Assembly: GCA_022424905.1 (NCBI GenBank)
Contig: JAKMGP010000184.1
Span: forward strand, 1 to 55,768
Length of the DNA: 55,768 bases
DNA from: Akkermansiaceae bacterium
GTDB lineage: Bacteria; Verrucomicrobiota; Verrucomicrobiia; Verrucomicrobiales; Akkermansiaceae
Reading direction: 5' to 3'
In this document: positions 2,709 to 37,886 of the stretch, in pieces
How positions within the stretch are numbered: the first letter of the stretch is position 1
Layout of the letters: each line of letters begins with the position of its first letter
Translations under genes and position numbers: made by a program
The notes under the pieces: generated by a model
Database searches by the model: none
What the model was told of the DNA's origin: nothing
Seen by the model: the letters and a program-made list of their open reading frames with translations, nothing else

Positions 2709-3998
2709 ATGCGCTACGAAGCTATCGATCCTCAGTTTTTTGTCCGTAATCGTGAGCGATTGCTTCAGAATCTAAAGCCGAATAGTTTGGTTGTTATTCA
2801 TGCCAATGATATTTTCCCAACCAATGCCGATGGGACGATGACTTTCCGTCAAAACAACGATTTGTTCTATTTGACCGGTGTTGATCAGGAAGAGACAGTT
2901 TTGATTTTAAGTCCGGATGCGGCGCTTGAGGAAGACCGGGCAATTCTATTTGTTAGAGAGACTTCCGAACAAATCGCGATCTGGGAAGGAGATAAACTAA
3001 GTAAGGAGCAGGCGACTGAGGCTTCCGGGATGAAAAATATCCAGTGGACTGATGCGTTTGAGCCGGCTTTTCGTCGCCTCGCGTTACAAGCCGAGAATAT
3101 TTACCTACACACCAACGAATATGTAGCGGCCTCACAAATTGTAGAAACTCGTAATCGTCGCTTTATTAGCAGGTGTCAGGAGCTTTATCCATTGCACAAT
3201 TATGAGCGGGTGGCGGTGCCTCTGCAGCAGCTTCGCATGGTCAAAGATCCAGAGGAGATCAAATTTCTTCAGAAGGCAATCGATATCACGGAGGCGGGAT
3301 TCCGCCGGGTTCTTAAATTTCTTAAGCCCGGAGTTGGGGAGTGGGAACTGGAGGCCGAATATCTTCATGAATTTGTCCGAAGCAAGTCGCGGGGATTCTC
3401 CTATTCTCCGATCATCGGTTCCGGAAAAAATGCCTGTGCGCTCCATTATCTGGATAACGATGATATTTGTGAGGACGGTGAAATGGTTCTGATGGATGTG
3501 GGAGCTGAATATGGAAATTGGAACGCCGACATGACGCGGACGGTCCCCGTGAATGGAAAGTTTTCACCGCGACAAAAAGATGTTTATGAGGCCGTTCTTC
3601 GAGTGATGTGGGGTGCAAATGATATTCTTCGTCCTGGCCTTACTCCAAGTGAATATCAGAAACAGGTTCTTGAAATTATGGAAAAAGAGTTGATCGGCCT
3701 TGGGTTGATCGATGCTGAAGAGGCCAAGAAGCAAGATAAGTCCAAGAAATTGGTGAAAAAATATTTCATGCACGGGACTTCCCATCACCTGGGTTTGGAT
3801 GTTCACGATGTATTCCCTGCGAATGCTCCGTACGCAGTCGGGCAGGTTCTTACGATCGAGCCCGGGATCTATATTCCTGAAGAGGATTTGGGTGTCCGAA
3901 TCGAGAATGACGTCATGATTGGCGAAGCCGATAATGTTAATATGTTTGCCAATTTCCCAACGACGGTAGAGGAGATAGAAGCGGCGATGGCTGAGTAA
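2709..3998 (+). CDS. pepP: Xaa-Pro aminopeptidase (aminopeptidase P)
   Basis: Metallopeptidase of family M24B that removes the N-terminal residue from peptides with proline in second position. The protein has 429 residues from the ATG at 2709 (MRYEAIDPQFF). It carries an AMP_N domain over about residues 1-135 and a pita-bread catalytic domain after about residue 180. Expected dimetal ligands are all present: Asp263 and Asp274 (MDVGAEYGNWNADMT), His359 (HGTSHHLGLDVHD), Glu384 (EPGIYIP) and Glu399 (RIENDV). A Lys-rich loop near 340-351 is the only oddity. The open frame runs 58 codons further upstream, but that extension is not family-like. It is divergent from the small gene at 2271 and convergent with glnD. 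Confidence 0.93.
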   Translation: MRYEAIDPQFFVRNRERLLQNLKPNSLVVIHANDIFPTNADGTMTFRQNNDLFYLTGVDQEETVLILSPDAALEEDRAILFVRETSEQIAIWEGDKLSKEQATEASGMKNIQWTDAFEPAFRRLALQAENIYLHTNEYVAASQIVETRNRRFISRCQELYPLHNYERVAVPLQQLRMVKDPEEIKFLQKAIDITEAGFRRVLKFLKPGVGEWELEAEYLHEFVRSKSRGFSYSPIIGSGKNACALHYLDNDDICEDGEMVLMDVGAEYGNWNADMTRTVPVNGKFSPRQKDVYEAVLRVMWGANDILRPGLTPSEYQKQVLEIMEKELIGLGLIDAEEAKKQDKSKKLVKKYFMHGTSHHLGLDVHDVFPANAPYAVGQVLTIEPGIYIPEEDLGVRIENDVMIGEADNVNMFANFPTTVEEIEAAMAE

Positions 3999-30551: not shown

Positions 30552-31319
30552 TTACTCGGTTTCTTCGGACAGAGCTAGAACCTTGTCGTTACTTGCACCG
30601 GTTTTGATGATTTCACCATTTACCTTTAAGTGAACAACCAGACCAAGAAGCTTGTCACGATACTTGCTCTTAGCCCCTTTGACCATGATCGGGCGCTGAT
30701 TGAATGTTCCCCACAGACCGTAGGGATCTTCGGTGAAACATCATCCACCTCCGCCGCCTGACGGCATAACCGGATTATCACTCCAAGATTCCAGATTGGC
30801 GCTCTTAGTAGTGATAGTTTCAGTCCCGTTTGAGAGGACGAGATCGATTGTGTCCGAGCCAGAGATCTTCTCAATCTTGTTTTGATACTGGCGGCGATTT
30901 CGCTCTACAAAAAAGACATATTCGACCGTCACATCTTTCAGCATCTCATCACGGTTATTTTCTACTGTGACGATGTAATTATGATCGTATTTTTCAAAGT
31001 GCCACTGCCCTTGCGCTGGCTTATTTTTTTCGGTCCTTTTGCTGTAATGCTTGGTGTCGATAGAAAGGGCTTTTCTAGCCTGAACAATCAGGCCTTGCTC
31101 TTTCACATATTTTTGGTCTTGCTCCGAAAGAATGTCGACGGAAAAGGTGAGGACTTTGCCACGCGCGATGCGCATCTTCGCTTTCTTTGTTGAGGACTCA
31201 TACTCAATGAGCTCGCCACGGAAGGTTTTTTTGCCATCCTTGCTGACGTAGGTGCGCATCTCTCCAAACACCGCGGTGAGGGGAAAGCATATAATAAGAA
31301 GCAACTGTCTACCTTTCAT
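30552..31319 (-). CDS. Exported SHD1-domain protein with in-frame TGA: candidate selenoprotein
   Basis: The frame starts MKGRQLLLIICFPLTAVFGEMRTY, a clean signal peptide. It continues as an SHD1-like beta domain of the PVC type (about residues 22-75, TYVSKDGKKTFRGELIEYES, VDILSEQDQKYVKEQG). After that comes a beta-rich domain, then PVMPSGGGGG at residues 183-192 and a TGA at 30741-30743. The same frame then stays open for 62 codons (CFTEDPYGLWGTFNQRPIM ... LSEETE) to TAA at 30552-30554. If TGA is read as selenocysteine (residue 193), the product is 255 residues with a vicinal Sec-Cys pair after five glycines. A SECIS-like hairpin lies at the expected distance. If TGA is a stop, the protein ends at 192 residues and the gene is truncated. 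Function unknown; predicted outside the cytoplasmic membrane. Confidence 0.6.
30708..30726 (-). promoter_or_regulatory. SECIS-like hairpin 3' of the in-frame TGA
   Basis: Reading the mRNA: CCC (30725-30723) pairs with GGG (30712-30710), U30722 is bulged, AC (30721-30720) pairs with GU (30714-30713), and the loop is GGUCU (30719-30715). Twenty-one nucleotides separate the UGA from the loop. In the E. coli fdhF SECIS a bulged U and a GGUC loop are the SelB contacts, so the resemblance is specific, although the upper stem here has two base pairs (or three with a closing G-U) and total stability is modest. Confidence 0.5.
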
Positions 31320-31387: not shown

Positions 31388-33886
31388 CTACTTCTGGAAA
31401 AGGGGATCGTTCTTGTTTCCTCCTGATAAGATGTAAGCGAGTAGGTCTAGAATGTCGTCATCTTCCAGTTGATTAAGAAGACCCGGAGGCATCATCGAGA
31501 ACTTGGTAGGCTCCGAAGATTTAATATCGCTAGTTTTAATAATCGTCATAGCTCCGGGAGCCATGAGATCGGTGATGATTCTGTAAGTGTCTCCGCTGAG
31601 ATTGGCGATACGGCCGATGATTTGTTTTCCATCTTTTAGGGTAAAGGTAATCGACCCATATTGGTCACTAATCTCCTTACTTGGGTCGATGATAGATTCG
31701 AGTAGGTCGTGGGGGCTGAATTTTCCACCCGCGCTGGTTAAGTCTGGGCCGATCCCTCCCCCTTCTTCATTGAAGCGGTGACACGCGTAGCAGGTTGCGG
31801 TCGCGAACATTTCGCGTCCGTTTTTGAAGTTGCGGTTGCTCTCGAGTCCAGAGCCAAGAAGGGGGGTGAGGTCCTTCATCTGCCAGTTCTTTATGAACTT
31901 AAGCTGGCGATTGCTGCTGAGCGGGTTTTTTGTCACGGGCTTAGCATCGATGATAGACGCGAGCGCCTTTTTACGCTTCGCAGAAAGACGGGCTAGGTGG
32001 TCTTTTTTGATTTCATTGACGAAGTTGTTGAAGCTTGCACCACCCTTGTAGCCGGCTGCGCGGCTGAACCAGATAAAAAGTTTTTTCTCGGAATCGTTCG
32101 TCCATCCTTGTTTCACAAAACGAATGTTTTTTGCGATCGCAATTTGCTCTTCCTGGGTTGGTGCGTTGGTAATCAAATCAACCGAGCGTGTGACCATGTC
32201 GGGAGTCTGAAGGTAGCCTAGAACATTTGAGAGCTCTATGTTTTCGAATGCCGAATCGCTAGGGTAGTGGGAATCGAGTTGTGCAATTACGGCTGCTTTA
32301 TGTTTGGCGTCTGGTGCTCCGAGACGAAGAAAAGCAAGCCCATATGCGCGGAGCAAATCGTAGCGTTCCTGCGGTTTGAGTTTGGCATAATCCAAAGCGA
32401 GAAGAGCTTTGATGACAGGAGCCTGGTGCTCTTTTCCTCCAAGACGGGCGAGGGAAATAAGTCCTCCAAGTTGAGCGAAAGTGTTCTTTTCCCTAAGAAC
32501 CTTTCCTGCCCAGTTTTCAACAGGAACTTTTTCGATGGCAGTACGAGCGGTGAAGCGAAGGGCGCGGTCGGCGCTGCCAAGGTGATTCCAAAATTTACCA
32601 ATAACGGAGGCGTCACTCTTAAGGTGGTATTTTGCAATGGCGTTACGCTCAGCGCGCTCCTTGGCTCCTTCGATGCGTGGTTTCGCGGGAGCGGTGCTTT
32701 CGCTGCCTGTGTAGGTAACACGGTAAATTCCGGATTGAACCCTGCGGCCTCCAACGGCGATGTACATTGCACCATCTTTTTGACTGATACAAAGATCGGT
32801 GAGGGGGAAGGGTTGACCGGCGATGAATTCTTCAACCTCCCCAGTGTAGCTGGAGCCGTTTGGTTCGAGGTGAACTGCGTAGAGTTTTCCATAAGACCAG
32901 TCGCAGGCGAAGAAAGCCTTCTGATATTTGGCTGGGAATTTTGCTCCGGTCCCAAAGGTTACCCCAGTGGGTGATCCGGGGCCAACGTTCACAACGGCAC
33001 CAAAGCTATCGCTGTAATATTCGGGCCACTTTGCCGAACCATTTCGCCAGCCGAATTCGGCCCCGCTAATGACGTGGTTGATGCGTGTAGGGCGATACCA
33101 AGGCGTGTTGATATCCCACTCCATATCCGCATCGTAGGTAAACATCTCTCCTTCGAGGTTGAAGTCGATATCGTATTGGTTTCGAAACCCAGTCGCGACA
33201 ACTTCCCAATTTTTGCCTTCAGGATCCGTCTTGCAAATCCATCCACGGGGAGCTTCAACTCCTTTCATAAACCCGCGACCGTAGACCCGCGGCTGGAGTG
33301 TGTCTTCGCTCCAGCATTCAGTGACGCGGGAGCTTTGATAATCGGGAAGAGCGGTTTGGTTTCCACAGGCCACGTAAAGCGATTTGCCGTCTGGCGAGAG
33401 AACCACGGCATGAGGGCCGTGTTCGCCTCCGACCTCCTGGAATTTTTTTAGTAAAGTGACTTTATTAAACTTATCGTCGCCATTTGTGTCCTGGATCCTG
33501 TAAAGTCCCCGGCCCTTGTGCTTCTTTTCGTTCACCACGACATAAAGCGAGTCGAAGGCGTACAAGAGCCCCCAAGCATGACCGATATCGAGATCAATTT
33601 TTTCGAGGTCCCTGTCGTCGAGAGTTTCTCCTGAGGCAGGGCGGTTAAAGCGGTAAAGCGAGCCGTATTGATCACCTGCGATAAGCCGCCCTTTGTCGTC
33701 TTCACAAAGGACGACCCAAGAACCGAAATCCTTTTTGGGAACTGAGTAGAGCCGCTCAATTTTGAATCCTTCTTTAACGACTAGGCGTTGTGGGGAAGTG
33801 GCTTGGGAGACGAAATCTTCGGCAAGAGTAACTTGAGCCATGAGAGTGGCTCCTACGATAACGGCAGATTTAAAAATTTTATTCAC
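31388..33886 (-). CDS. PVC-type haem-binding propeller/HEAT protein (c-type cytochrome domain)
   Basis: A large exported redox protein of the PVC membrane-bound dehydrogenase type. From the GTG at 33886 the N-terminus is a signal peptide (NKIFKSAVIVGATLMAQVTLAEDF). A TTG at 33907 would add seven residues. The first half is a glucose/sorbosone-dehydrogenase-like propeller (GQPFPLTDLCISQKDGAMYIAVGGRR). A helical HEAT-like section follows. The C-terminal c-type cytochrome domain has CYACH (Cys699, Cys702, His703 from the GTG) and the family tail PPGLLNQLEDDDILDLLAYIL. Probably oxidises a sugar or polysaccharide-derived substrate in the periplasm; substrate unknown. A longer paralogue lies immediately upstream. 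Confidence 0.88.
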   Translation of the reverse strand: MNKIFKSAVIVGATLMAQVTLAEDFVSQATSPQRLVVKEGFKIERLYSVPKKDFGSWVVLCEDDKGRLIAGDQYGSLYRFNRPASGETLDDRDLEKIDLDIGHAWGLLYAFDSLYVVVNEKKHKGRGLYRIQDTNGDDKFNKVTLLKKFQEVGGEHGPHAVVLSPDGKSLYVACGNQTALPDYQSSRVTECWSEDTLQPRVYGRGFMKGVEAPRGWICKTDPEGKNWEVVATGFRNQYDIDFNLEGEMFTYDADMEWDINTPWYRPTRINHVISGAEFGWRNGSAKWPEYYSDSFGAVVNVGPGSPTGVTFGTGAKFPAKYQKAFFACDWSYGKLYAVHLEPNGSSYTGEVEEFIAGQPFPLTDLCISQKDGAMYIAVGGRRVQSGIYRVTYTGSESTAPAKPRIEGAKERAERNAIAKYHLKSDASVIGKFWNHLGSADRALRFTARTAIEKVPVENWAGKVLREKNTFAQLGGLISLARLGGKEHQAPVIKALLALDYAKLKPQERYDLLRAYGLAFLRLGAPDAKHKAAVIAQLDSHYPSDSAFENIELSNVLGYLQTPDMVTRSVDLITNAPTQEEQIAIAKNIRFVKQGWTNDSEKKLFIWFSRAAGYKGGASFNNFVNEIKKDHLARLSAKRKKALASIIDAKPVTKNPLSSNRQLKFIKNWQMKDLTPLLGSGLESNRNFKNGREMFATATCYACHRFNEEGGGIGPDLTSAGGKFSPHDLLESIIDPSKEISDQYGSITFTLKDGKQIIGRIANLSGDTYRIITDLMAPGAMTIIKTSDIKSSEPTKFSMMPPGLLNQLEDDDILDLLAYILSGGNKNDPLFQK

Positions 33887-34004
33887 AGAGGACGAAACCC
33901 TACGCAAGCAATATTCACAACGCTATTTTAAAAACCAGATCTTGAAGGAGTGTTTCTTGTTTTGAAGTAATCAAAATGGAGGAATGGCTCCTTCGTCTCG
34001 TATT

Positions 34005-37000
34005 TTATTTATGTCCCTCATCCGTTTTGTCCTTTTTGCAGGAAACGAGGAAAGCCACAAGGTCGCGAGCTTCTTGTTTGCTCAGCAGGGCGGTCATTGG
34101 GGGCATTGCCGAGACTGGTTTGCTCTTCTTGGCAATATCTGATTTTTTGATGATCTTCGTTGTTTCGGCAAATTTGATAATGGCATTACCGTCTTTGTCA
34201 TCGGGCATGAAGTTACCGCTGATCTCTGTGCCGTCTTTCAGGGTAATAGTGCCAAGGCCATATCCGTCAGCAACTTCGGCGCCAGGATTGACAAGCGAAC
34301 GCAGTAGGTAGGCAGAATCATGTTTTTTACCGATGGCTCCGAGCTCGGGGCCAACATCCCCACCAACTCCGTGCATGGTATGGCAGCGTTGACATTGAGC
34401 CGCTCCGTGTTCGTAGAAGATTTTTTTGCCCAATTTGACGTCTCCGCCATCGCGACAGAGGAGATTCCACTCGGCGTTTGGGTCGTCCTTGGCGAGGGAC
34501 GCATGAAATTCGTCGAGAGAGAGAGCTACTGTTTCGGCAGCGGTGACGATGTCTAGAGCAAGTCCTGATTCGGCTTTGCCAGTAATCAGTTGGTCGAGAG
34601 CAACCTTGATCATCTCTCTAGCTTTGGGTGTTTTGAGTTTGGTTAGAGTTTGCAAAGTGAGTTGCTTTTCTTTCAAGGTGGCCTTTTTACTCGTGAGAAG
34701 ATCTCCAAGCTGAGCGGTAGCGCGATCGGGATCATTCTTGAAGAGAAGTTCTCTCGCCATGCTTCGGACTTTGTCGCTTTTGTCGGCGAAAAGTTCCTGA
34801 AGCGTGAACGGCCAAACGGAACTCGATTCTTTGAGCGGCGAGAGAAGCTTCATCGATTTAACGCGGGCCTCCTCGGGGTATTTTTCATTCTTTAGGTATC
34901 GAGTGAGACGAAGTTCACCGAGAGGGATCTTGTCCTGTTCGGAGAGAGTGAGGGCGCGGGAAATGAGGTCGATCGAGCTTTTGTCAATGCCATCAAGGAG
35001 ACCCTCAAGGTCTTTGATGATGCTGGAATCTAGTTTGATCCGATTCTCAGGAAGGGTCCGGGCAAACCCAGTGACAGGATCTGGGACGGGTGGGTTGTTC
35101 CACTCGAGGAGAGCGATTAGCGCGTCCTTACGAGTCCGGAAATCAACTTTTGGGTCGGCGGCAATTTTTGCGATTACTTCGGCGTCCTTTTCTTGGCCTA
35201 AAACCCAAGCTGCAAAAATTGCTCTTCGAGCGGTCAAAGGGTGCCATTTTATTTCAGGAGAGACTCTTAGTGCGATGTTGTGTGCTTGGTTTGAGAGTGC
35301 TCGATAGGTTTTACGAACATCCATTTCATAAGCAGCGCGAATCGCTTCCTGGCGGACTGATTGATCGCGGTCGCCAAAATAGGTTTCGAGAAGATGAGAT
35401 TTATGGCGACGAAGGGCAATGACGATAGCGCGGCGGACTGCTGTCGAACGGTGGTCAAAGTATCTCCAATCGGGCGCAAAATTGGCACATTTTGTAAGGA
35501 CCATGATTCCAGCGTGGCGGAGAACAACATCCTTATCGTCGTTTTTCTCCAACATCTTAATCGCCGGTTCGACTGCATCTTCATGACCATGATTGGAGAG
35601 GGCAATGGCCGCGAGTGATGCGACACGTGGTGATGAATCGTCGAGCATTGCGATCAGAGCCTTACGGAATGGGGCGAGGTGCTTGCCGTGGTTGCCAAGA
35701 GTTCGTGCAAGGTTGGCCCTAATTTCCATTTCTTCGTCCCCGATTAGACTGGTTAGGGAGTTAAGTGCGGAAGGGTTTTTCTGGCCAAGCTGACCAATTC
35801 CCCAAAGGCCGTGGATTCTGCGCATGAGTGGTTGGCTTGGCTTGATTGCCTTTTCAAACAGATGAAGGGAAGCGAGGTCTTGATCAGCGAGAGCGAATTG
35901 AGCGCGCTGGCGCACCCGCTGGTCAGGGTGGGCCAGAAGCTCGAAGAGTCTGCCTGGCTTAAGGGAGGGGATGCCGTTTGCGAAAAGATTTTTGATTTCT
36001 GTAATCTTTTTTGACTTGAGTTTCGAGTCGTCGGCGAGGGTGTAGACGTTACCTTTTCCAGACTTGGTCCAGCCACCACCGTAGTCTGCAATATAGAGCT
36101 TACCGTCATATCCCCAATCGAGGTCGGTAAGGGCGATTCCCTTCAGGAAGTTTGTCTGCTCGCCGAGTTTAAAATTGGCTCCGTCGGGATTCAGGGTGAA
36201 GCGTTCGATGAGGCAGCGACCGGGTCCGGCGACGTAGCTTGCAACGAAAAAGTTGCGATCGAATTTTTCGGGTAGTCCGACGATGCCGGGATTGTAGGCC
36301 AAGCCGCAGGGGCCATTCGAGCTGTAAGCAATCGGAGGATTGATGTAGGCAGGTTGGCGGTCGTGGCGGGTATTCCAAAGCCCTTCGTTCATCCAAGCAT
36401 CGATTTGATCCTCTTTGCGTGGAGGCTTCCCGCCAATGTGATTGTAGACTGAGCCACCGAAGGAGACCATAGTTTGGTGGCCCATTTTCCAGCCGGAGTC
36501 ACCATGTTCGACGAGATAGACAATTCGCTCGCGATCTCCTTGGTCGTAATCGTTATCGACGGTGAATAGATTGCCAAATTCATCAAAGACAATCTCTTTT
36601 GGATTACGAAGATTGATGTAGAACTCCTCAAATTCAGAGCCGTCAGGGTTAGCTCTGAAGACGCCGCCAGAGTCTGGACGCGCAAAGGTCTTGCCATCCT
36701 GTTCAACATGATAACCACGGTCGCCAATCGACCAATAGAGTTTGCCGTCAGGGCCCCAAGCGAAACCGTTAAGATCATGACCGGAAAAGCTAACACGAAC
36801 TCCAAAACCATTGACGAGCGTTTTGACCTCCTCTGCTTTTCCATCGTTGTTGGTATCTTTGAGGCTGTAAACGCCAGGAATCATTGCGAAGTAGACAGTG
36901 CCGTCTTTTTCAATGAGTCCGCCGGAGGGGCCGGCGAGGGGGGCGTTAAAATCACCACGATAAATGGTTGTTTTATCCGAGACGCCATCGCCATCGGTGT

Positions 37001-37385
37001 CTTCAAGTAGTTTTATGACTTCTGAATCTTTCGTGAATTCTTCCCACTTGAGGAAGTCGTCTTGCTTCCCAGACCACTTTTTGTGAAAAGCGGTGCGGTC
37101 ATCAAGGGTCATATTGGAGATGTCTCCGTTCACACGGTCGCGCAGGAATCTGCCACCGTGACGGATATCTTGCACTTGCACACGCCAACGATTTGTTTCG
37201 GCTATGTAGACGCGGTTTTGAGCATCGATGCAGATTGCCGTGGCGTTTTGGACCTGATTTTGATCGGCGAAGCGATTGAGCGTAAGGCCTTCGGGAATCG
37301 TGATTCTTTTATCGAGATTGGAAGGAACGAGTTGAGCGCTGATCGGCAGAAGGGCGAGGAGAGAGAGAAGAAGTAGGCGTAGCAT
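34005..37385 (-). CDS. Large PVC-type haem-binding propeller/HEAT protein
   Basis: A 1,126-residue paralogue of the downstream gene. The ATG at 37385 gives a clear signal peptide (MLRLLLLSLLALLPISAQ). The open frame continues 62 codons upstream without signal-like sequence, so I reject the longer form. The propeller covers about 25-500 (NATAICIDAQNRVYIAETNRW, NLRNPKEIVFDEFGNLFTVD). HEAT-type helical repeats run from about 530 to 950 (ANLARTLGNHG, SSPRVASLAAIALSNHG, SVRQEAIRAAYEM). The C-terminal cytochrome domain carries CQRCH near residue 1,000 and ends MPPMTALLSKQEARDLVAFLV. Export and covalent haem attachment are predicted. Such proteins are nearly restricted to Planctomycetes and Verrucomicrobiota. 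Confidence 0.9.
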   Translation of the reverse strand: MLRLLLLSLLALLPISAQLVPSNLDKRITIPEGLTLNRFADQNQVQNATAICIDAQNRVYIAETNRWRVQVQDIRHGGRFLRDRVNGDISNMTLDDRTAFHKKWSGKQDDFLKWEEFTKDSEVIKLLEDTDGDGVSDKTTIYRGDFNAPLAGPSGGLIEKDGTVYFAMIPGVYSLKDTNNDGKAEEVKTLVNGFGVRVSFSGHDLNGFAWGPDGKLYWSIGDRGYHVEQDGKTFARPDSGGVFRANPDGSEFEEFYINLRNPKEIVFDEFGNLFTVDNDYDQGDRERIVYLVEHGDSGWKMGHQTMVSFGGSVYNHIGGKPPRKEDQIDAWMNEGLWNTRHDRQPAYINPPIAYSSNGPCGLAYNPGIVGLPEKFDRNFFVASYVAGPGRCLIERFTLNPDGANFKLGEQTNFLKGIALTDLDWGYDGKLYIADYGGGWTKSGKGNVYTLADDSKLKSKKITEIKNLFANGIPSLKPGRLFELLAHPDQRVRQRAQFALADQDLASLHLFEKAIKPSQPLMRRIHGLWGIGQLGQKNPSALNSLTSLIGDEEMEIRANLARTLGNHGKHLAPFRKALIAMLDDSSPRVASLAAIALSNHGHEDAVEPAIKMLEKNDDKDVVLRHAGIMVLTKCANFAPDWRYFDHRSTAVRRAIVIALRRHKSHLLETYFGDRDQSVRQEAIRAAYEMDVRKTYRALSNQAHNIALRVSPEIKWHPLTARRAIFAAWVLGQEKDAEVIAKIAADPKVDFRTRKDALIALLEWNNPPVPDPVTGFARTLPENRIKLDSSIIKDLEGLLDGIDKSSIDLISRALTLSEQDKIPLGELRLTRYLKNEKYPEEARVKSMKLLSPLKESSSVWPFTLQELFADKSDKVRSMARELLFKNDPDRATAQLGDLLTSKKATLKEKQLTLQTLTKLKTPKAREMIKVALDQLITGKAESGLALDIVTAAETVALSLDEFHASLAKDDPNAEWNLLCRDGGDVKLGKKIFYEHGAAQCQRCHTMHGVGGDVGPELGAIGKKHDSAYLLRSLVNPGAEVADGYGLGTITLKDGTEISGNFMPDDKDGNAIIKFAETTKIIKKSDIAKKSKPVSAMPPMTALLSKQEARDLVAFLVSCKKDKTDEGHK

Positions 37386-37886
37386 ATTTTTTTCGGCGAG
37401 TAGTCTACGCAAGATCAATCTGGGAAATTTCACGAGGATCTTGGGAAGATTGCGGAGCGGAGCTGTGACGAGATAATCCCTTGTTGCTAGAATCTTGAAA
37501 CAAGATTGGTGGTTTTTTGAGGAGGAGAGGTGAACGGCGAAGCTTGGCGTTATTTCGTTTAATTTCATCACTTGCAGAGGCGGAGTCAGGAAAACTTCTT
37601 TTCATTAGAATTTTCAGGGGCTGCCAGAATGGATGAAGGATTCGGGGGATGATCGCGTTTCCTATTTGGCGGCGATTCACAAAGAAAGATCTGAAAGCCA
37701 CAAGGTAGGGGGAGGTTTTGAAGAGAATGGACTTATCGGGCGGTCGTTGAATGGTCTTGTGGCTTGTAAGGTTGACGCATTCGATCAAGACGATAGGAAA
37801 GTGAAATTCAGGGGTGTGTGAATTGAAACCGCCCAAAATTTCGGGATTGCCCGAAAGATCGAGCGATTTTCAACCGAAAGTAAGGA
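37386..37886. other. Non-coding interval with a leader hairpin
   Basis: The 501-bp region between the divergently transcribed haem protein and lipoprotein genes has open frames on both strands (for example 37405-37836 minus), but none looks like a protein. A perfect 7-bp hairpin, tttcggg-attg-cccgaaa, lies at 37839-37856, 30 bp before the lipoprotein start. It lacks a T-run and may be a leader or operator element. Promoters for both flanking genes must lie here, but I cannot point to -35/-10 boxes with confidence. Confidence 0.45.

Follow-up and report, generated by a model that had tools for sequence, protein, structure and literature searches.

An in-frame TGA probably read as selenocysteine in a predicted exported, beta-rich protein family of Verrucomicrobiales

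Most selenoproteins of known function are redox enzymes, and in mammalian thioredoxin reductase a C-terminal Gly-Cys-Sec-Gly arm carries a mobile selenol. A 2026 review inventories 119 selenoprotein families and subfamilies (PMC13188914, Table 1) and, in its excerpted text, gives the bacterial SECIS (bSECIS) model as a hairpin with a 3-9 nt apical loop, a G in the first two loop positions and a 4-16 bp upper stem, lying 16-37 nt from the UGA with an energy of -7.5 kcal/mol or lower. Exchange of Sec and Cys among homologues is a pattern used to recognise selenoproteins (PMC12013277, excerpt). A further system for comparison is Amuc_1102 (MUL2A) of Akkermansia muciniphila, described in the excerpted part of PMC13174399 as part of a type IV-like pilus system whose gene cluster includes PilM.

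We describe here a gene in a 55,768-nt stretch of DNA from an Akkermansiaceae bacterium, the whole of which is referred to as the window. Like mammalian thioredoxin reductase, the predicted protein would carry Cys and Sec side by side in a flexible stretch that contains Gly, and the idea of a mobile selenylsulfide is common to both. Unlike in that enzyme, no flavin or pyridine-nucleotide domain was found; the protein also places Sec before Cys and on an internal loop, and is bacterial with a predicted signal peptide; no homology is claimed. It also differs from bacterial selenoproteins with a bSECIS in the coding region in being beta-rich, rather than thioredoxin-folded, in its structural model. 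With Amuc_1102, the best fold match in the PDB (7dsz, Foldseek E 1e-4), it shares a taxonomic setting, as Amuc_1102 is from Akkermansia and the window gene's orthologues come partly from Akkermansiaceae. However, the TM-score is 0.24-0.27 by query length at 11-13% identity, on a model of mean pLDDT 61, and a sequence-profile match to Amuc_1102 was not found. PilM was not seen among the two neighbours scanned in the genus relative G134 or, by reading, among the window neighbours, and no Cys/Sec loop is mentioned for Amuc_1102 in the excerpts of PMC13174399. Given the quality of the model, we take this resemblance as a lead only.

The gene occupies the minus strand from 31319 to 30552; read in the same frame, the plus strand holds five stops. 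From the ATG through GGGGG there are 192 codons, after which TGA stands as codon 193 (30743-30741), followed directly by TGT (30740-30738), 61 further sense codons and TAA. With TGA read as U, the product is a protein of 255 residues including Sec193. The sequence-only reading had proposed this arrangement, with a signal peptide and an SHD1 domain at the front; the series GGGGG, TGA, TGT, 61 codons, TAA holds, as does the signal peptide (by reading), whereas the SHD1 label finds weak support. The parts of the gene are as follows.

30552-31319, minus strand: the complete gene of the putative selenoprotein, which has 255 residues with Sec193 counted and ends at TAA
31263-31319, minus strand: predicted signal peptide, residues ~1-19, Sec/SPI type, likely cut after AVFG (by reading of the sequence)
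31068-31259, minus strand: SHD1-like small beta domain, residues 21-84; weak PF03983 match in 2 of 23 members, strands and a helix in the model
30783-31067, minus strand: first part of a second, beta-rich domain, residues 85-179, five strands in the AlphaFold model
30744-30758, minus strand: pentaglycine, residues 188-192, invariant in the window gene and seven orthologues
30741-30743, minus strand: TGA as putative selenocysteine, residue 193, a codon that the window gene shares with 7 of 7 orthologues
30738-30740, minus strand: Cys194, the predicted partner of Sec193, invariant in the window gene and seven orthologues
30709-30725, minus strand: SECIS hairpin CCCUAC-GGUCU-GUGGGG within the coding region, loop at 30719-30715, synonymous changes suppressed
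30594-30653, minus strand: final two strands of the second domain, residues 223-242; homology after the TGA extends across the family

The length of the open frame is by itself weak evidence, because a run of 62 open codons after a random stop has a chance of about 5% by (61/64)^62, the same figure that had been given before. Homology turns the open frame after the TGA into very strong evidence from sequence comparison. Seven orthologues (L048-L054), five of whose records are from Akkermansiaceae or Verrucomicrobiales, share 76-95% identity with the window protein across its 255 residues. Each of the seven, from separate assemblies, carries TGA at the same codon. Over codons 206-255, dN is lower than dS in all 28 pairs of the eight sequences (for the window gene and L052, dN is 0.053 and dS 1.374); on these codon comparisons, the frame after the TGA is under purifying selection.

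We searched more widely for homologues in genomes and in named records. The window protein has matches in 143 of 288 genomes of the order, many through the N-terminal domain only, and a profile of the second domain, built from a 28-row alignment, has matches in 121 of the 288. The stretch after the TGA, with its RxDxLxGxVV-like pattern, aligns as homologous across the better matches. An alignment of 142 rows gave 94 distinct records once 14 rows gapped at the Sec column and 34 duplicates had been removed; of these, 53 have TGA at the column and 41 do not. The 53 are related sequences and not 53 independent events. With all stops read through, neither TAA nor TAG occurs at the column in 109 distinct rows, and the six TAA or TAG codons found elsewhere lie 73-79 columns after it (five) or 112 columns before it (one, L189). 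In a phylum sample of 387 genomes, 31 had a match, and among the matches listed the window gene alone had TGA; the Sec form was thus not seen outside the order in that sample.

In 52 of the 53 TGA records, a second Cys or Sec lies within 10 residues. The pair is Sec-Cys in 18 records (the window gene included), UxxxxC in 4, CxxxxU in 20 and Cys-Sec in 2, with other Cys spacings in 2, two Sec in 6 and a lone Sec in 1. The last (L144, G068:C104) has TGA and a six-pair GGUC hairpin, yet no Cys or Sec within 10 residues. Seven of the 94 records have Cys at the column, six of them with a second Cys nearby (CxxC in L028, L046, L134 and L135, CRGGSC in L023 and CC in L140), and in L103 the Cys stands alone. 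Two of these, L023 and L140, fall inside Sec clades in a FastTree tree of 93 sequences, computed with Sec entered as Cys and with support values not shown. L023 comes from G281, which has no selA match, and over 147 columns it shares 48% identity with L076, a record that bears Sec; the source of L140 is G091, where selA is present. Judged from the alignment, the column shows the Sec/Cys exchange by which selenoproteins are recognised.

In the remaining 34 of the 94 records the column holds something other than TGA or Cys: Tyr in 13, Phe in 6, Trp in 4, Ser in 3, Gly in 1 and other residues in the rest. Many of these records are weak, distant matches. They are free of stops, none has a hairpin that reaches the threshold, and 58 of the 74 genomes that have a family match and no TGA lack a selA match among the matches listed, which together suggests that in these proteins the loop never held Sec or has lost it. 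The earlier proposal had named TGA or Cys at the column as support and Trp, Arg or Gly as a sign against selenocysteine; the homologues bear out the first in 53 and 7 of 94 records, with a homologous frame after the TGA, and include the second in the four Trp and one Gly records among these 34.

A SECIS-like hairpin downstream had also been proposed, and one is present. CCCUAC-GGUCU-GUGGGG starts 15 nt after the UGA, with its loop at 21 nt, and has an energy of -9.2 kcal/mol, or -10.4 kcal/mol with one more pair. Set against the bSECIS model in the excerpts of PMC13188914, its 5-nt loop, 6-7 bp stem, 21-nt distance and -9.2 to -10.4 kcal/mol all fall within the limits. The lowest-energy fold of the 45 nt after the UGA in the window gene is a different hairpin (-13.2 versus -9.2 kcal/mol), but this alternative is broken in L054, where the SECIS hairpin is kept in the sequence's own minimum. 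The window contains 107 TGA triplets preceded by 40 or more open codons and followed by 30 or more; a hairpin of this kind with a score of 16 or more is found solely at the TGA of this gene. An inverted-repeat tool run around the TGA found nothing, which we guess is because the stem holds a G-U pair. Synonymous variation in the eight sequences affects 1 of the 12 SECIS codons (194-205) compared with 159 of 216 other codons (21-186 and 206-255), a suppression with a hypergeometric P of 8e-6.

For the family as a whole we applied a rule of an RGTY loop and a contiguous stem score of at least 13, 12-60 nt after the TGA. Hairpins of this kind follow 51 of the 53 TGA codons (all but those of L116 and L129), with GGUC, AGUU or GGUU loops, and none of the 41 non-TGA records has one, a weaker hairpin being present in 4 of the 41. 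The rule was set after the family had been seen, and is guarded by a synonymous null and by selD. In 200 synonymous-codon randomisations, the hairpin occurred on average in 2.4 of the 53 sequences and never in more than 6. Because the loop rule was post hoc, we checked it on selD: 30 selD loci were fetched, and 26 of the 27 UGA-containing genes, including the host's, obey the rule (L156 fails), while in the 3 without TGA the hairpin is below threshold. The inner stem and loop occur in 21 distinct combinations, and when the arms are swapped between members 44% of positions pair; together with the differing amino acids, this argues that the RNA is conserved and not the protein alone.

Some members depart from the usual spacing. 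In L027 (G221:C1), which has a single TGA, the best RGUY hairpin, CUUUUUGAC-GGUC-GUCAAAAAG, lies 45 nt downstream, outside the usual 16-37 nt. Six records (L036, L037, L043, L076, L123 and L128) have two in-frame TGAs 6-10 codons apart; counted from the second TGA the best hairpin lies 18-21 nt downstream, and counted from the first, 36-51 nt. In L183 (G235:C30), about 1 kb from a family member, a thioredoxin/TlpA-like gene at ~2771-3682 and on, on the minus strand, has an in-frame TGA in UGPC (GDWUGPCR), followed at 31 nt by a hairpin with a GGUC loop. This gene likely encodes another selenoprotein, of a known kind and with the same SECIS loop.

The selenocysteine genes that the sequence-only reading had named as a check are present in the host assembly (4.05 Mb in 347 contigs, with 92.8% completeness and 5.3% contamination): tRNA-Sec with anticodon TCA (UCA), selA (488 bits), selB (312 bits) and a selD with one in-frame TGA of its own. 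All are in the same bin as the window but on other contigs, so that the host genome alone would allow for a binning error. At a wider scale, selA occurs in 12 of 12 sampled genomes of the host's genus. Across the order, selA was counted in 96 genomes, 92 of 288 over the family cut-off and 4 under it, none of the 4 being among the genomes with a TGA member. The latter number at least 47 of 288 among the matches listed, from which weak ones may be missing. Among the matches listed, selA is found in 45 of these 47 genomes and in 51 of the 241 others (Fisher P = 3.5e-23), and when the comparison is restricted to the 121 genomes with any family match, the figures are 45 of 47 for genomes with TGA and 16 of 74 for those lacking it (P = 4.9e-17, again among the matches listed). 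The two TGA genomes without a selA match are 83% (G005) and 54% (G230) complete, and G005 has a TGA-containing selD despite the lack of a match. Five of the 12 genomes of the host's genus (G254, G268, G269, G275 and G276) have selA, but the second-domain profile finds nothing in them; other selenoproteins probably keep the Sec system there, and each of the five is listed with a selD that contains TGA.

The architecture of the protein was examined with profiles and an AlphaFold model. The Pfam domain PF03983 (SHD1, SLA1 homology domain 1), which the family's N-terminal domain resembles weakly, matches 2 of 23 family members with a best E of 0.0017 and does not match the window protein at E <= 1; the only Pfam match of the window protein at that threshold is Malic_M (E 0.19), far under cut-off. 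Since no more than 8 close sequences were usable, the model is of middling quality, with a mean pLDDT of 61 overall and 10-residue pLDDT means of 53-80 over residues 85-179. It is beta-rich with two helices and runs from the strands of the SHD1-like part through five strands and a low-confidence segment (180-220) with the Sec-Cys pair to the two last strands. With five strands before the UGA and two after it, translation past the UGA would complete the beta domain and place Sec-Cys on a Gly-rich loop, which in the model is probably flexible. Export of the protein is suggested by a reading of its N-terminus. A thioredoxin fold with UxxC or CxxU is not what we find: there is no thioredoxin-family Pfam match, the model is beta-rich, and CxxU spacing occurs in 1 of the 53 TGA records (L124). 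Sequence searches of the PDB gave no significant match, and Foldseek matches to arrestin and factor XIII were taken as generic beta-sandwich noise.

The view that the protein is unlike known selenoprotein families agrees with what we find in the sources compared. No SHD1, Ig-like or verrucomicrobial family is named in Table 1 of PMC13188914. Neither Pfam nor NCBIfam gives an informative match to the Sec-bearing domain of the scanned members; against NCBIfam 20, none of three Sec-family proteins was matched and a Cys-form protein had matches far under cut-off only. Such a family is not described in the excerpts of PMC13188914, PMC12013277, PMC2398784, PMC1088965, PMC4807772, PMC3281104, PMC5332112, PMC13174399 and PMC4513850. 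The hypothetical protein GOS_A, represented by 2 sequences in PMC2398784, may be a relative. The gene appears to represent a new selenoprotein family, with a scaffold unusual for selenoproteins and standard bacterial recoding.

Gene neighbourhoods were scanned in 9 loci, and the 20 neighbours share no common theme and name no partner; clpX adjoins two sister members (G183 and G221). In the window, two genes for large proteins with, by reading, C-terminal CxxCH cytochrome-like modules lie upstream on the minus strand at 31388-33907 and 34005-37571, the nearer one 68 nt from the window gene and on the same strand. A relative of the nearer protein in G134 matches Cytochrom_C, and the large cytochrome c-like upstream protein recurs in the close relatives L048 and G134; in L054, another ORF stands between the cytochrome c-like gene and the family member. 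In G134 the scan took in two neighbours, one of them a cytochrome c protein and the other a CotH/LTD protein.

Our combined findings are best explained by recoding of the TGA as selenocysteine by the host Sec system and the hairpin, in an exported beta-domain protein with Sec-Cys on a Gly-rich loop, a reading to which we give a probability of roughly 0.88. That the gene encodes a selenoprotein, in a marine-type bacterium, is almost certainly correct and is supported about as strongly as sequence allows. The conservation of the recoding site, the family, the SECIS and the co-occurrence were computed, while selenium, export, redox chemistry and a partner are what we infer from them. In the proposed mechanism, SelA, SelB, SelD and tRNA-Sec would translate the TGA as selenocysteine, with insertion directed by the hairpin with the GGUCU apical loop that begins 15 nt after the UGA. 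The product would comprise a signal peptide, an SHD1-like domain and a beta-rich domain, whose long Gly-rich loop would hold Sec beside Cys.

Outside the cytoplasm, this pair could cycle between selenol-thiol and selenylsulfide, and may serve peroxide reduction, disulfide reduction or an electron relay; it would act like the mobile selenol arm of mammalian thioredoxin reductase, unlike a thioredoxin fold. The pattern of residues makes such an exported redox protein reasonably likely. At one and the same place in the loop, Sec-Cys, Cys-Sec, UxxxxC, CxxxxU, Sec-Sec, Cys-Cys and aromatic forms occur, and this free exchange of pair order and spacing suggests a mobile selenylsulfide redox site or a soft-metal ligand. 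The second of these, in which the exported protein captures or buffers Hg, Cu, Ag or a similar metal without redox turnover, is rather unlikely in our estimation. A metal-binding loop would tolerate such variation of the pair (UC, CU, UxxxxC, CxxxxU, CxxC, CC and two Sec) together with the disorder that the model gives this loop. However, the 20 neighbouring proteins scanned include no metal-resistance family, the scanned family members have no metal-binding Pfam match, and the predominance of redox enzymes among selenoproteins of known function also speaks for redox turnover.

The full-length protein might instead be made alongside a short form ending in GGGGG, with frequent stopping at the UGA being deliberate and the selenium supply switching between the two. 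In the model, the first domain and 5 of the 7 strands of the second precede the UGA, and a recoding efficiency of 30-40% in vivo has been reported for an organism not named in the excerpt (PMC4513850). Nonetheless, the two strands after the UGA are conserved family-wide and complete the beta domain, so that the short form would probably misfold, and we consider such a switch improbable.

A nonsense mutation or assembly error that cut an ordinary SHD1 protein and left the downstream frame as a remnant, for which the ~5% chance of the open run could be cited, is extremely improbable beside the TGA shared by seven orthologues from separate assemblies, dN below dS after it, a column with TGA and never TAA or TAG, the SECIS hairpin and the selA co-occurrence. 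We give no better chance to readthrough or reassignment of UGA to Trp, Arg or Gly without selenium: four distant stop-free records have Trp at the column and one has Gly, but these lack a hairpin at threshold, Cys occupies the column in 6 of 6 stop-free records that have a paired residue, SECIS-like hairpins and Sec genes are present, and TGA terminates 7 of 34 long ORFs in the window and is thus an ordinary stop in a code that has not changed genome-wide. Pseudogene, sequencing error and code reassignment were accordingly rejected on the orthologue TGA, selection, the lack of TAA or TAG at the column and the ordinary TGA stops, and selenocysteine is preferred, as originally argued, over a random nonsense mutation.

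At the level of the family, there is a slightly better than even chance that these proteins belong to a large and hitherto undescribed superfamily of exported beta-domain proteins of the Verrucomicrobiales in which one loop of a conserved scaffold serves as a swappable, evolvable extracytoplasmic selenium site, for redox or metal capture, and in which some members would decode two UGAs before a single SECIS.

With this finding, a phylum hardly mentioned in the excerpted selenoproteome papers that we compared gains a selenoprotein family built on a non-thioredoxin scaffold. Where gene calling treats TGA as a stop, such genes would be listed as short proteins ending in glycine plus a remnant, and a mechanical ORF list made in this way does split the window gene into these two parts. 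Since SECIS loops are conserved while amino acids change, they provide a lineage-specific rule with which more selenoproteins of Verrucomicrobiales may be found. With its varied Cys and Sec pairs on one scaffold, the family would lend itself to a natural comparison of the advantage that Sec has over Cys in an extracytoplasmic protein.
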